Shown here in pieces: positions 1-26,699 of a stretch of 37,106 nucleotides of DNA. The stretch is from contig NZ_FQTP01000007.1 of NCBI RefSeq assembly GCF_900128515.1, forward strand, positions 1 to 37,106, given 5' to 3'. Position 1 is the stretch's first letter. Each line of letters opens with the position of its first letter. Source of the DNA: Bathymodiolus heckerae thiotrophic gill symbiont. Its GTDB lineage: Bacteria > Pseudomonadota > Gammaproteobacteria > PS1 > Pseudothioglobaceae. The translations under genes and the position numbers were made by a program. The notes beneath the pieces were generated by a model that saw nothing but the letters and a program-made list of their open reading frames with translations, made no database searches and had not been told where the DNA came from.

Positions 1-879
1 TTGCCTGATTTTTCACGTTCTAAAATTACCAATTGGGTGCGTACAGGCAAGGCATTGGTTAATAATAAAACCTTCAAACCTAAAGAAAAAATATTGGGTG
101 GTGAGATTGTCGCCCTAACCTTGGTTAAAGAAAAATTAAACGCTTGGCTGGGTGAGGATATTCCTATTGACGTGGTATACGAAGATGATGATATTATCGT
201 GGTTAATAAGCCAGTAGGCTTGGTAACGCATCCAGGAGCGGGCAATTGGACGGGCACACTCGCCAATGCATTGTTGCATTTTGATCCATCACTTGCTAAT
301 CTAGATCGTGCAGGAATTGTTCACCGATTGGATAAAAATACCTCGGGACTTATGGTGGTTGCGCGTAGTGAATTAGCGCAAAAAAACTTAGTTAATCAAC
401 TGCAAACACACACAGTATCTCGTGAATATTCAGCTATTGTTTATGGCCATATGATTTCTGGCGGTACTGTGGAGGCGCCAATTGGTCGTGACCCCAAAGA
501 TAGAATTAGACAAGCGGTAGTTGAAGAAGGTGAAGGTAAAAATGCAATAACGCACTATCGCGTGATTGATCGTTTTGCGCACCACACCCATGTTAAATGT
601 ATTTTAGAAACAGGACGTACGCATCAAATTCGCGTACACATGTCTTATGTTGAGCATCCACTGATTGCCGACCCTATGTATGGCGGAAAAATACGCTTTC
701 CTAAAAAAGCTGACGAAGACTTAAAAGACGCATTAAAGTCATTTAAGCGTCAAGCATTACACGCTAAAAAATTGACAATTTCTCACCCAATTACTGGTGA
801 AGAGATGTCATGGAAGGCGCCTTTGCCACAAGACCTGAAAGACTTATTAGCTACGTTGAATAAATTTGACCCTGTCTAG
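1..879 (+). CDS. rluD: 23S rRNA pseudouridine synthase RluD (5' partial)
   Basis: RluA-family pseudouridine synthase that would modify helix 69 of 23S rRNA. The visible 292 residues begin inside the N-terminal S4 RNA-binding domain (about residues 1-45, with the LVNNK...KEKILGGE pattern). They continue into the catalytic domain, where HRLDKNTSGL carries the catalytic Asp at about residue 111. A later RTHQIRVH motif is also typical of the family. Family members are about 320 residues, so roughly 30 N-terminal residues lie before the window. The TTG at position 1 reads better as an internal Leu of LFPDFSRS-like sequence than as a start. The stop overlaps the pgeF start by one base, the common rluD-pgeF pairing. 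RluD rather than RluC is inferred from the pgeF neighbour and the S4 sequence. Confidence 0.93.
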   Translation: MPDFSRSKITNWVRTGKALVNNKTFKPKEKILGGEIVALTLVKEKLNAWLGEDIPIDVVYEDDDIIVVNKPVGLVTHPGAGNWTGTLANALLHFDPSLANLDRAGIVHRLDKNTSGLMVVARSELAQKNLVNQLQTHTVSREYSAIVYGHMISGGTVEAPIGRDPKDRIRQAVVEEGEGKNAITHYRVIDRFAHHTHVKCILETGRTHQIRVHMSYVEHPLIADPMYGGKIRFPKKADEDLKDALKSFKRQALHAKKLTISHPITGEEMSWKAPLPQDLKDLLATLNKFDPV

Positions 880-1601
880 TGACAACTGTATTCCCAAAAA
901 ATGTCCATCTAATTTCAACTTCTAGATTTATTAACAAAGGTGCAGGCAAGGCCTGCACCTTTGTTAATGGCTATGCCGATTTTAATTTAGCCACGCATGT
1001 GGGTGATGATTTAAGCTCAGTTGAGCTTAATCGTAAACGGCTTATCCAGCATTACAACTTACCCAGTGTGCCAAAATACTTAGAGCAAACGCATTCAGAT
1101 ATTTGCCTTGATGTCAGTAGTGCCGAATGTTTGGGTGATGCTGTTGTAACCAGCGATAAAAATACAATTTGTTGCGTGATGACGGCTGACTGTTTACCAA
1201 TTTTTGCCAGCAATAGTAATGGTACGCAAGTGGGTGTGGCGCATGCGGGTTGGCAGGGGGTTGTGAATGGCGTGATTGAATCTTTTGTAGCAAGGTTTAA
1301 TCAGCAAGAATTGATTGTGCATTTTGGCCCAGCCATCTCTCAAGACAATTTTGAAGTAGGTCAAGATGTGTATGATCAATTCATTGCTAAAGAAGACTCT
1401 CTGGCGCAAGCATTCATTCTATTTAACAACAAATACAAGCTAAATATTTATCAAGCAGCTCGAATTATTCTAAATAAACTAGGTGTTGAAAATATCAGTG
1501 GTGGCGATCAGTGTACCTATGTTCAAAAAGACAAATACTTTTCCTATCGACGAGATGGATTAAAATCTGGCCGAATGGCACATCTTATTTGGATGAAATA
1601 A
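879..1601 (+). CDS. pgeF: PgeF/YfiH-type multicopper-oxidase-like protein (peptidoglycan editing factor)
   Basis: 240-residue member of the YfiH/laccase-domain family. In E. coli this family removes wrongly incorporated residues from peptidoglycan precursors; other members have been described as purine nucleoside enzymes. The metal/active-site triad is visible as H72 (EQTHSD), C105 (MTADCLP) and H122 (HAGWQG). The C-terminus has the family signature FSYRRDGLKSGRMA. The start is GTG at 879, overlapping the rluD stop (TAG) by one base, so the two are translationally coupled. Oddity: residues 18-30 (INKGAGKACTFVN) are encoded by a perfect 37-nt palindrome at 931-967. They lie in the loop that in E. 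coli YfiH reads roughly STRIGGVSLPPYDSLNLG, making that loop about seven residues longer. The frame stays open, so the protein is probably functional. Confidence 0.92.
   Translation: MTTVFPKNVHLISTSRFINKGAGKACTFVNGYADFNLATHVGDDLSSVELNRKRLIQHYNLPSVPKYLEQTHSDICLDVSSAECLGDAVVTSDKNTICCVMTADCLPIFASNSNGTQVGVAHAGWQGVVNGVIESFVARFNQQELIVHFGPAISQDNFEVGQDVYDQFIAKEDSLAQAFILFNNKYKLNIYQAARIILNKLGVENISGGDQCTYVQKDKYFSYRRDGLKSGRMAHLIWMK
931..967 (+). repeat. Palindromic repeat copy 1, inside pgeF
   Basis: Perfect inverted repeat with 17-bp arms at 931-947 and 951-967 around the 3-nt loop AAG. The centre (942-956) is the 15-nt core GCAGGCAAGGCCTGC that recurs four more times in this window. The outer 11 bp of each arm (TTAACAAAGGT and its complement) are specific to this site. 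It is read in frame as IN-KG-AGKAC-TFVN within pgeF. The mRNA would form a strong hairpin about 50 nt after the start codon. It relates to the RAYT element at 5468-6214. Confidence 0.95.
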
Positions 1602-1630
1602 CAACTGAGCAGGCAAGGCCTGCTCAGTTG
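1602..1630 (+). repeat. Palindromic repeat copy 2, after pgeF
   Basis: Perfect inverted repeat beginning right after the pgeF stop: 13-bp arms at 1602-1614 and 1618-1630 around AAG. The core GCAGGCAAGGCCTGC is at 1609-1623. The outer 7 bp (CAACTGA and complement) are unique to this site. It lies between the convergent ends of pgeF and the DUF2798-like gene and could stall transcription from both sides. There is no clean T-run, so terminator function is only possible. Confidence 0.93.
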
Positions 1631-4404: not shown

Positions 4405-5373
4405 ATGAAAAAACAATTATTAATCGCTGCAGTAGCAGCATCTATGTCAGCTGCATCTATGGCTGATGTTTCGATTGCAGGTAACGCTAAGTTTGAGTAC
4501 AGAAATATTGACACAAATAATGTCTCTTCAAATACAACAAACACAGAAGTTAACTTAAACGTACGTGGTAGCAATGGCGATACAAAAGTAATCATGGATC
4601 TTGAGTTTAATACTCATGGTGGTAATGCTACAACTGCTTTAGATGTTGAAAACTTGTACCTAACAACTAAAATTGGTATGGTTAACGCTAAGCTAGGTAA
4701 CTACACAACACCTACTTCTGCAATCTTGGGTGAAATTGACAACGGTAGTCGCGCAACTAACAAAATGACTTTCTCAACCATGCTTAACGGTGTTAAAGTT
4801 TATGCTGGTAACACGGGTGCTGTTACAGGTGCTGGACAAACAGCAATTGATAATAACATGTTTGTCGGTGCTTCAGCTACAGTTCAAGGTTGGACATTAC
4901 AAGCTAAGAAAAACTCTTCAACTGTAAACTCTTTTGGTGTTAAAGGTAGTGTTGGTCCAGTTGGCATTCGTTACGAAATTAAAGATAACGACGCAGCTAA
5001 TTCTGATGTAGATTTCTTAAACTTAACAGGTGATTTTGATGGTGTTAAAGTAGGTTATGCACGTCTAGATGCTGATGCTGATAGCCTAATTACTGAAGAT
5101 GATTCTGATTTATTCGCAGTTGAAAATGCTGGTAATGGTGATTCAAACGCTCAGTTCAGCTTAGCGACTACTGTTGCTGGTAACACCTTTACAGGTAAAA
5201 TCGGTTCAATTGGTTATGCTGCAGCAACTGGTGATTTAGACTACACTGAGTTAAGCGTATCACGTGCATTAGTATCAGGTTCAACATTGAAAGTATCTTA
5301 TTTAGATCAAGATTTAGACGGTACTGCTCATGATACTGAAACTTTAGAGTTCGATTTATCTGTTAAGTTCTAA
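4405..5373 (+). CDS. Outer-membrane porin (Gram-negative porin family)
   Basis: 322 residues. A classical signal peptide (MKKQLLIAAVAASMSAASMA) is likely cleaved before D21. The mature protein opens with DVSIAGNAKFEYRN, typical of porin first strands, and alternates polar and hydrophobic residues throughout. It ends in LEFDLSVKF, a C-terminal aromatic beta-signal for outer-membrane assembly. It is rich in Asn, Thr, Asp and Ala with many short Gly/Asn/Asp turns, and at 322 residues is close to a 16-strand trimeric porin. Mature acidic residues are abundant. A consensus promoter, long leader, strong ribosome site and strong terminator suggest an abundant general diffusion channel. Substrate specificity cannot be read. 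Confidence 0.88.
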   Translation: MKKQLLIAAVAASMSAASMADVSIAGNAKFEYRNIDTNNVSSNTTNTEVNLNVRGSNGDTKVIMDLEFNTHGGNATTALDVENLYLTTKIGMVNAKLGNYTTPTSAILGEIDNGSRATNKMTFSTMLNGVKVYAGNTGAVTGAGQTAIDNNMFVGASATVQGWTLQAKKNSSTVNSFGVKGSVGPVGIRYEIKDNDAANSDVDFLNLTGDFDGVKVGYARLDADADSLITEDDSDLFAVENAGNGDSNAQFSLATTVAGNTFTGKIGSIGYAAATGDLDYTELSVSRALVSGSTLKVSYLDQDLDGTAHDTETLEFDLSVKF

Positions 5374-5418: not shown

Positions 5419-5450
5419 AAAACCCCCTAATTTCGGTTAGGGGGTTTTTT
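5419..5450 (+). terminator. Porin terminator
   Basis: Perfect 12-bp stem AAAACCCCCTAA (5419-5430) / TTAGGGGGTTTT (5437-5448) with loop TTTCGG, continuing into a T-run. This is a textbook Rho-independent terminator for the porin gene. Confidence 0.96.
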
Positions 5451-5467: not shown

Positions 5468-5490
5468 TAGTGCAGGCAAGGCCTGCCTCA
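5468..5490 (+). repeat. Palindromic repeat copy 3 (left of RAYT)
   Basis: Core GCAGGCAAGGCCTGC at 5472-5486, preceded by TAGT and followed by CTCA. The outer bases do not pair with each other, so the hairpin is the 6-bp core only. The whole 23-nt segment matches the reverse complement of 6192-6214 at all positions except the AAG loop. It forms the left boundary of the RAYT unit, 30 bp before the start codon. Confidence 0.93.
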
Positions 5491-5519
5491 TTTGACAAAA
5501 TTCAGGTACAATTCAAACC

Positions 5520-6194
5520 ATGAGTATTAGGAAAATTAAATTTACCAATGATGAATATTATCACGTGTTTAATCGGGGTGTGGATAGACGTATTATTTTC
5601 AACACGAAAGATCAGCAGAGGTATTTTCTTAGTCGGTTACGCTTGCTGAATACTACTGATAGTAGAAAATATATTACCAATAAGAGGAGTCGATGTAAAA
5701 ATAAAGAGACTCTTGGAGAAGGTGAGAGTTTGGTGAGTATTGTAGCTTATTGTTTATTGCCTAATCATTTTCATTTATTGCTCAAACAAAATGTTGATAA
5801 CGGTATTTCACAGTTTATGCAAAGATTGGGTACGGCTTATACCATGTTTTTCAATCAAGAGGAAAATCGCAGTGGCAGCCTGTTTCAAGGAAAATTTAAA
5901 GCCACACATCTCAGCGGTGATTTTGCCTTACCAGTGTCATCTGCCTATATTAATCTTAACTATGCACATCATAAAATAAACACTAACAAAAACTTAGTTA
6001 AATCTAGTTTGTGTGATTATTTACCTGATGCAGGCAAGGCCTGCACCAATGATATTTGTAATCAAGAAGAGATTGACGATATTGTTAATGAAATTGGTGG
6101 ATTGTCTGAATACAGGCAATTTATTAAGAATGCATCTAAAACTTTTGTTGACAATAAAGGAAATACCGTAAATTTAAATGATTATGAATTTTGA
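5520..6194 (+). CDS. REP-associated tyrosine transposase (RAYT, Y1/HUH family)
   Basis: 224-residue Y1-type transposase related to IS200/IS605 TnpA. Its family cleaves and joins single-stranded DNA at hairpin-forming repeats. Visible landmarks: N-terminal YYHVFNRGVDRRIIF (residues 13-27), the HUH motif in LLPNHFHLLL (H83, H85), and the candidate nucleophile Tyr Y107 in GTAYTMFFN. The conserved G-S-LFQGKFKA segment (119-128) and a YINLNYAHH segment follow. All key residues are present, so it may be active. Residues 171-175 (AGKAC) are encoded by an internal copy of the palindrome it presumably recognises. The stop codon lies within the right palindrome. ATG 5520 has only a weak ribosome site (CAGGTA). 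Confidence 0.92.
   Translation: MSIRKIKFTNDEYYHVFNRGVDRRIIFNTKDQQRYFLSRLRLLNTTDSRKYITNKRSRCKNKETLGEGESLVSIVAYCLLPNHFHLLLKQNVDNGISQFMQRLGTAYTMFFNQEENRSGSLFQGKFKATHLSGDFALPVSSAYINLNYAHHKINTNKNLVKSSLCDYLPDAGKACTNDICNQEEIDDIVNEIGGLSEYRQFIKNASKTFVDNKGNTVNLNDYEF
6029..6045 (+). repeat. Palindromic repeat copy 4 (inside the RAYT ORF)
   Basis: Core GCAGGCAAGGCCTGC at 6030-6044, with one extra pairing base on each side (T6029, A6045). It is read in frame as A-G-K-A-C at RAYT residues 171-175, the same frame and peptide as in pgeF. It lies in the less conserved C-terminal part of the transposase. Confidence 0.93.
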
Positions 6195-6214
6195 GGCAGG
6201 CAAGGCCTGCACTA
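6192..6214 (-). repeat. Palindromic repeat copy 5 (right of RAYT)
   Basis: Core at 6196-6210, preceded by TGAG and followed by ACTA. In reverse complement it reads TAGT-core-CTCA like copy 3, but with CTT as the loop. The TGA at its left end is the RAYT stop codon. It forms the right boundary of the unit. Confidence 0.93.
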
Positions 6215-6288: not shown

Positions 6289-7089
6289 ATGATTACTCAA
6301 TTAAATAACAGAGTCTTATTAAAACTCACTGGCAAGGATGTGCAGGGTTTTTTGCAAGGGCAATTTTCTAATGATATTGCTAAACTTGAAGAGGGTATTG
6401 TGCAGCTGAATGCGTATTGTCAGCATCAAGGTAAAATTATGGCACTTATTTGGGTGATGAAAAAGGCGGATGAATATTATTTGTCTTTTCCTCAAGGGTT
6501 GTCTGAAGAAATCGTTAAAAAACTGACGATGTTTAAGATGATGTCAGATGTAGTGATTACTGATATAACTAACGAAATCATTCAATTGGGTGTTGTTGAT
6601 GAAATGGTTAAAGGTGCGTTTAAACTTAATAATCAACAGTCGGTAGCTTTTAGTGAGTCAATTGACGGATTTGAATTGAGTGATGAAATGCATTGGCAAA
6701 AGACTTGTATTGACAATGAAGTACCTGAAGTTGAGCTAATAACGGTTGAAAAATTTGTACCACAATTGCTTAATTTAGATATTAATGAGACTGGTGTGAG
6801 TTTTACTAAGGGCTGCTATCCCGGGCAAGAAGTAGTTGCACGCTTGCATTATTTAGGTAAATCAAAGCGTCGAATGCGTACTTTTGAGTGCGAAGGTGAT
6901 GTGAGTGTAGGCGATGAACTGATTGCGCTAAATTCTACCTCTGCTAAAGCTTGTGGTATTGTGGTGCGTTGTGTAAAATTAAATGATCAATTGCTTTGCT
7001 TGGCGACGGTTGAAATCGCCTATGAGGATGATACAATCACTTTAAATAATGCTGAAGGCACTTTATTAACCAGGATTCATGATGACTAA
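6289..7089 (+). CDS. ygfZ: YgfZ-family folate-binding protein
   Basis: 266 residues of the YgfZ/GcvT-like family. These proteins are tetrahydrofolate-dependent and support repair or maturation of some Fe-S enzymes, including MiaB-type tRNA-modifying enzymes. The diagnostic motif KGCYPGQEVVAR is present, with its conserved Cys at residue 176. The N-terminus (LTGKDVQGFLQGQFSNDI) is the usual folate-binding fold start. The family is somewhat longer in E. coli (about 326 residues); this is the compact form. The last codons overlap the start of nhaD by 11 bp, implying translational coupling. A link between Fe-S maintenance and the downstream genes is not evident. Confidence 0.92.
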   Translation: MITQLNNRVLLKLTGKDVQGFLQGQFSNDIAKLEEGIVQLNAYCQHQGKIMALIWVMKKADEYYLSFPQGLSEEIVKKLTMFKMMSDVVITDITNEIIQLGVVDEMVKGAFKLNNQQSVAFSESIDGFELSDEMHWQKTCIDNEVPEVELITVEKFVPQLLNLDINETGVSFTKGCYPGQEVVARLHYLGKSKRRMRTFECEGDVSVGDELIALNSTSAKACGIVVRCVKLNDQLLCLATVEIAYEDDTITLNNAEGTLLTRIHDD

Positions 7090-26560: not shown

Positions 26561-26573
26561 CCTTTGGGACTTA

Positions 26574-26658
26574 AACAAACCCTCTTAGGTAAAATAAAAT
26601 AATTTGACATATGAATAACTATGTCTGCATGATTTTATTTTACCTAAGAGGGTTTGTT
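26574..26658. repeat. Inner inverted repeat B of the MITE (perfect, 27 bp)
   Basis: Perfect 27-bp arms at 26574-26600 and 26632-26658 (central part CCCTCTTAGGTAAAATAAAA) around a 31-nt loop. The loop holds its own stem GACATA (26606-26611) / TATGTC (26620-26625). The transcript across dnaK-dnaJ would carry a very stable hairpin here. Confidence 0.95.
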
Positions 26659-26699
26659 GTTGTCAAAAATTACCAGAATTTATAGAGGCGCCCTTAAGA

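Follow-up and report, generated by a model that had tools for sequence, protein, structure and literature searches.

The window, i.e., the entire stretch of 37,106 nucleotides (38% G+C) analyzed here from a thiotrophic gill symbiont of Bathymodiolus heckerae, carries a transposase-like gene flanked by two short hairpins, with further copies of the same hairpin core inside that gene and in and after pgeF. The features considered below are as follows.

879..1601, + strand: pgeF (YfiH; TIGR00726, 181 bits), with one hairpin inside it and another after it.
930..968, + strand: hairpin around the core at 942-956, inside pgeF and in frame, with 18-bp perfect palindrome arms.
1602..1630, + strand: hairpin around the core at 1609-1623, directly after the pgeF stop, with 7 extra paired bases per side.
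4405..5373, + strand: unnamed 322-aa ORF upstream of the transposase, no Pfam or NCBIfam match.
5468..5490, + strand: upstream hairpin, TAGT-core-CTCA, AAG loop on +.
5520..6194, + strand: HUH/Y1 (RAYT-like) transposase, 224 aa (Pfam Y1_Tnp, 5.9e-9), with NHFH at residues 82-85, LFQGK, and Y143 within YINLN.
6030..6044, + strand: third core copy, in frame in the transposase coding sequence, where it encodes AGKAC; the structural model has a loop of low confidence here.
6192..6214, + strand: downstream hairpin, TGAG-core-ACTA, overlapping the transposase TGA stop.
6289..7089, + strand: ygfZ (TIGR03317, 82.8 bits), the conserved downstream neighbor that marks the orthologous locus.

A terminator-like hairpin at approximately 5424-5450, after the 322-aa ORF, precedes the upstream repeat. 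We rejected the CGTC close to the upstream hairpin as a possible REP tag, since it is the tail of this terminator and is also present at the hairpin-free locus of genomes G007 and G008. Elsewhere in the window, 26563-26669 forms a long inverted repeat, with arms of 41 nt that are 85% complementary and separated by 25 nt; it lies outside the hairpin system.

Aligned with 6192-6214 in reverse complement, segment 5468-5490 (TAGTGCAGGCAAGGCCTGCCTCA) differs only at the three loop bases and matches at the other 20 of its 23 positions, and both hairpins have the AAG loop on the + strand. Direct comparison therefore bears out the original prediction that the two flanks are reverse complements at all 20 positions outside a loop that reads the same way on both sides. 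The 15-nt core, GCAGGC-AAG-GCCTGC, occurs exactly at 942, 1609, 5472, 6030, and 6196 (n = 5 in the window), always with AAG on +; the copies at 942-956, 1609-1623, and 6030-6044 had previously been missed. Shuffled windows held a mean of 0.54 core matches, even with 3 mismatches permitted, the 1.92-Mb assembly has 10 exact cores against 0 for the reversed control, and none of 5000 random gene-sized intervals of the window had a matching hairpin pair. These results indicate that the flanking hairpins are not due to chance. Outside the core, the 4-nt flanks match as TAGT/ACTA and CTCA/TGAG; the counterpart in G002 has GGT/ACC and CTCA/TGAG, and that in G009 matches only partially. At 930-968 the arms of the hairpin run 12 nt into pgeF as a perfect palindrome, and comparison with G006 suggests that one arm was rewritten from the other.

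The identification of the gene product as a RAYT-like transposase with an HUH pair and catalytic Tyr held up. H83, H85, and Y143 are invariant across 14 aligned sequences, and, since a PDB sequence search found no relative, we compared folds. The best match of the predicted structure (mean pLDDT 79) was the E. coli RAYT-REP complex 4ER8 (Z 13.0, 151 residues, rmsd 3.1), above the IS608 and ISDra2 transposases (Z 8-10, with IS608 at about 10). The NCBIfam model REP_Tyr_transpos scored 29.9 bits, under its curated cut-off of 80, and a Pfam match to an aspartyl protease (E 5e-4, barely above cut-off) was taken as spurious. Across 41 sequences, NH[FY]H, LFQ, and Y[IV][NH]LN are present in nearly all, exceptions being L108 (YVNNN) and L213 (LFQSR), and an SS motif is present in most aligned A1 rows. 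Named relatives come from Candidatus Thioglobus, SUP05, and Ruthturnera, followed by Patescibacteria and Bacteroidota. The dN/dS of 0.04 to 0.16 indicates that the protein is under purifying selection.

The pairing of transposase and hairpins extends well beyond the window. In the host family, 23 of 31 transposase loci lie between two hairpins whose inner arms are identical (24 allowing one mismatch); in other phyla this was so at 10 of 16 loci, or at 12 if we count a pair with one mismatch and an upstream copy overlooked because of the start call. No clear hairpin pair was seen at the near-full-length family loci L207, L213, and L214, nor any matching pair at other Y1 transposases of the same genomes (L058, L061, L062, and L063, with NHIH/NHVH, WQG, and YVENNP/YVELNP motifs). 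Some of the latter four have GGGGAC...GTCCCC-type ends, resembling the GGGGWSAS of TIRtrons.

About 20 arm types were distinguished across relatives at the ygfZ locus and among paralogs elsewhere, including GCAGGC, TGCAAGC, GGAAGGC, GGAAAGC, GTATTATAGGC, GTGACAGGC, GTCATAGGC, GATACGGGC, and AGAACGGGC. Most Thioglobaceae have AAG or CTT as the loop, and elsewhere it is TCG, CGA, CCG, or CGG. Arm type follows the transposase tree, both flanks within a locus carry matching arms, and two sister enzymes (L209 and L219) have the same arms with different loops (AAG and CGG). The same arrangement, with a TCG or CCG loop, is found around related enzymes of Patescibacteria and Bacteroidota. The Patescibacteria core CAAGGT-TCG-ACCTTG is present up to 24 times in a genome of 0.7 Mb, with some copies forming close inverted pairs; in addition, several Patescibacteria transposase genes contain an in-frame hairpin copy. 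One host-family genome (G061; L208, L258) has 25 copies of CAAGGTTCGACCTTG, identical to the Patescibacteria 15-mer, and its transposase groups with the Thioglobus A-locus enzymes.

Hairpin presence tracked the enzyme across genomes, most of which are drafts. The window core was present in 10 of 83 family genomes, and, with flanking and internal copies excluded, dispersed window-type cores occurred in 5 of 6 genomes with the cognate transposase versus 4 of 77 without (p = 2e-5, too strong a value since the genomes are related and orthologous loci are not independent). With respect to the original prediction, the core was thus neither absent elsewhere nor equally common without a RAYT; it is repeated, and it tracks the transposase. 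The palindromic state did so as well: where the enzyme is present, 91 of 127 occurrences of the centre GGCAAGGCC lie in a palindrome, versus 0 of 10 in four genomes that lack it. Copy numbers were low. The type I 15-mer was found 14 times in G006, a carrier of the type I enzyme, five times in G009, and once in G002, while the GGAAGGC type had three copies in G015 and four in G057, both with that enzyme, and also four in G004, where the enzyme was not found. Tracking by type is imperfect because of such orphans: G000 has two type E hairpins, G004 has several of the GGAAGGC and TGTAATA types, and neither genome yielded a transposase of the corresponding type.

Where the dispersed copies sit bears on a first alternative, that the hairpins are transcription terminators or mRNA-stabilizing structures kept by selection and that the transposase is incidental. 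Among 36 independent dispersed sites, 25 were intergenic, 19 of them beginning within 12 nt of a stop codon, as this alternative would have it, and a location downstream of genes is also the usual one for REPs as a whole (PMC3733652). The other 11 sites, however, are in frame inside coding genes, with AAG on the sense strand in 9 of them; host genes include pgeF, hemW, tadA, mpl, rsxG, fmt, and truB, as well as ygfZ in G001 and G009. Arms that match the resident transposase and change with it, and the lack of GGCAAGGCC-type palindromic copies in the enzyme-free genomes noted above, also count against a terminator role, and we regard it as improbable.

Slightly less probable still is an autonomous IS200/IS605-type insertion sequence, in which the gene and two hairpin ends move together. 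The resemblance of the predicted fold to IS608 and ISDra2 fits such an element, as do flanking hairpins with same-strand loops, which a one-strand transposase requires. However, a single transposase copy of the window lineage is present per genome, and in six genomes (G000, G001, G002, G006, G009, and G011) it occupies the same place, between the terminator of the upstream gene and ygfZ, which largely refutes this possibility. A dN/dS of about 0.1, the dispersal of hairpins without the gene, the hairpin inside the transposase gene itself, and a RAYT rather than an IS transposase as top fold match also argue against it. The fixed locus before ygfZ likewise led us to reject a hairpin-bounded mobile unit, and the earlier claim that the hairpins are the ends of a unit did not survive; solo copies elsewhere, the copy inside the transposase gene, and the mostly inverted loops of TCG/CCG loci (below) all count against it. 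No clean target duplication was found at pgeF, at ygfZ, or in the gap before ygfZ. Nor did we find an empty site with clean insertion ends; hairpin-free relatives at ygfZ and pgeF differ by replacement of a stretch and not by a simple insert. G007 and G008 have no transposase at the ygfZ locus, and their retention of the promoter-like ATGAAAATTGG, found before the transposase in G002 and G009, suggests that it was lost there.

Loop orientation differed between groups. Of the pairs at AAG-loop loci, 19 of 21 have both loops on one strand; at TCG/CCG loci this holds for 3 of 14, the loops being inverted in 11 (counts made by hand, with orthologs that are not independent). In Stenotrophomonas maltophilia, reversing the loop largely abolished binding by the RAYT and lowered cleavage (PMC8266576). 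The suggestion in the original prediction that the loop strand matters thus gains indirect support, from the same-strand AAG pairs and from a different RAYT. For an enzyme acting on one strand the loop would serve as the strand signal, consistent with the S. maltophilia results (PMC8266576).

Several orthologous sites bear different arms in different species, within flanking DNA that is approximately 71 to 81% identical (main aligned blocks). Inside pgeF, G000, G001, G008, and G011 have the window type, and G006 has its own type in the same reading frame; after the pgeF stop, G000 has type A and G002 and G009 have type C; inside mpl, G000 has type E and G001, G002, G009, and G011 have type A; and both near the tadA start and after the gene at C81, G000 has type A and G004 has GGAAGGC. 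At one site where G002 and G009 are 95% identical, GTGACA/TGTCAC versus GTGATA/TATCAC shows both sides changed together. Such differences could reflect overwriting in place, the reuse of a site that had been emptied, or paired mutation. In both pgeF and hemW, G000 and G001 use the same codons at all five core positions, although within these genes only about half of their codons for shared residues are the same. Separately, L122 (G001:C1:1150100-1152500) and L154 (G004:C41:1100-3600) have in common, at 99.8% identity, a 2.4-kb stretch in which fmt contains a type D hairpin, whereas other orthologous stretches between species of the genus are mostly 73 to 81% identical; either recent transfer or a mis-binned contig may be responsible.

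Replication template switching (quasipalindrome correction) around a common seed would make or maintain palindromes with no transposase, and it finds some support in arms that at some sites extend into unique flanks (positions 9-11 are all paired at 10 sites versus 1.9 expected) and in the pgeF right flank of G000 (GTTAAT; GCGGAT in G006), which complements the left flank; as it cannot put the same arms at unlinked sites or link arms to a transposase lineage, it is very unlikely as the sole cause, but it can act in addition to an enzyme.

We therefore favor, at a probability of roughly 80%, the reading that the locus is REPtron-like, a variant of the REP/RAYT system in which a vertically inherited, domesticated HUH/Y1 transposase is accompanied by its own hairpin family. 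Every hairpin of such a family is a perfect palindrome whose 3-nt loop is asymmetric (AAG at this locus) and whose arm sequence is particular to one transposase lineage. Sequence comparison shows that between species the arms change together on both flanks and genome-wide, and dispersed copies mostly match the resident enzyme. The enzyme would bind a single DNA strand folded as a hairpin, read the loop to select the strand, cut beside the hairpin foot through Y143, and copy or move hairpins in trans; transposition itself we infer. The mixed outer flanks of the window pair may have arisen when GGT-core-ACC and TGAG-core-CTCA palindromes swapped halves at their common core, for example if a circle closed by Y-core-Y' (TGAG-core-CTCA) joined X-core-X' (GGT-core-ACC) and yielded X-core-Y' ... 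Y-core-X'. Inverted outer flanks with an uninverted loop would follow from this half-exchange, if it occurred, a step that we infer from 3-4 nt per side. Solo palindromes exist in the lineage as AATGAG-core-CTCATT (L009) and GGT-core-ACC (L030 and pgeF).

RAYTs are the best-known domesticated bacterial transposases, and the system described here bears on how an enzyme and its repeats remain matched while both change. Because the same gene at one locus bears different arms in sister species, and both flanking copies and most dispersed copies follow, change in specificity can be read from a series of species. The results also assign repeats to an enzyme subclass (2.1) previously reported without any, and they reveal palindromes tolerated within important genes (tadA, fmt, and truB). 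More tentatively, and with the odds rather against it, the loci may represent a large overlooked RAYT class (subclass 2.1-like; Thioglobaceae, Patescibacteria, and Bacteroidota) in which the loop is a fixed strand signal, the arms form a lineage code that can change, and older hairpins are overwritten where they stand by the enzyme of the genome; if so, the same gene site bears a different arm type per species. A search of open PMC papers on RAYTs with Thioglobus, SUP05, or Patescibacteria returned nothing on point.

Several known systems share parts of this organization. Unlike IS200/IS605 elements, the gene and its ends are not mobile together, and there is one fixed orthologous locus instead of copies at unrelated loci. 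TIRtrons (TIRYT; PMC3733652) also comprise RAYT-like genes flanked by non-GTAG repeats, some self-complementary and dispersed, but their TIRs share GGGGWSAS or are long inverted repeats, whereas ours are hairpins with 3-nt loops, which in this family are mostly in direct orientation. Rickettsia palindromic elements (RPE; PMC3733652) resemble our hairpins in lying in frame in functional genes, but they are CGTC-tagged and have no known dedicated transposase. In-frame repeat copies within the transposase gene are likewise a trait of TnpA-Y1 subclass 2.4 (RAYT group 4), which is set apart by its GT[AG]G feet, by the motifs WQ and YIxNNP, and by a greater spacing between HUH and Tyr (88 aa in the median).

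The NHFH, LFQ, and YINLN motifs fit subclass 2.1 and not 2.4. For subclass 2.1 (RAYT group 1), Quentin et al. (2018) gave the motifs NH[YF]H / FQ / Y[IV]HLNP / SS, and their survey reported no REP-like sequences (PMC6006769). The enzymes here share NH[FY]H, FQ, Y[IV]xLN, a downstream SS, and a length of approximately 220 to 240 aa, an assignment made by motifs against the table in PMC6006769; unlike subclass 2.1 as surveyed, most loci here have a matching hairpin pair.

The closest likeness in organization is to the REP/RAYT (TnpA_REP) REPtrons of E. coli, Stenotrophomonas, and Pseudomonas. These differ in the fixed GTAG/GTGG tag at the 5' hairpin foot, which by inspection is missing from the copies listed here, in that our loop and closing pairs are conserved while the arms vary and copies are few, and in that the window enzyme scores under the NCBIfam RAYT cut-off (29.9 versus 80 bits). 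The two nevertheless have in common an HUH/Y1 enzyme of RAYT fold, a gene lying between short palindromes of which solo copies are found elsewhere in the genome, an own repeat family for each enzyme (here with some orphan types), and, going by S. maltophilia (PMC8266576), a loop whose strand matters.
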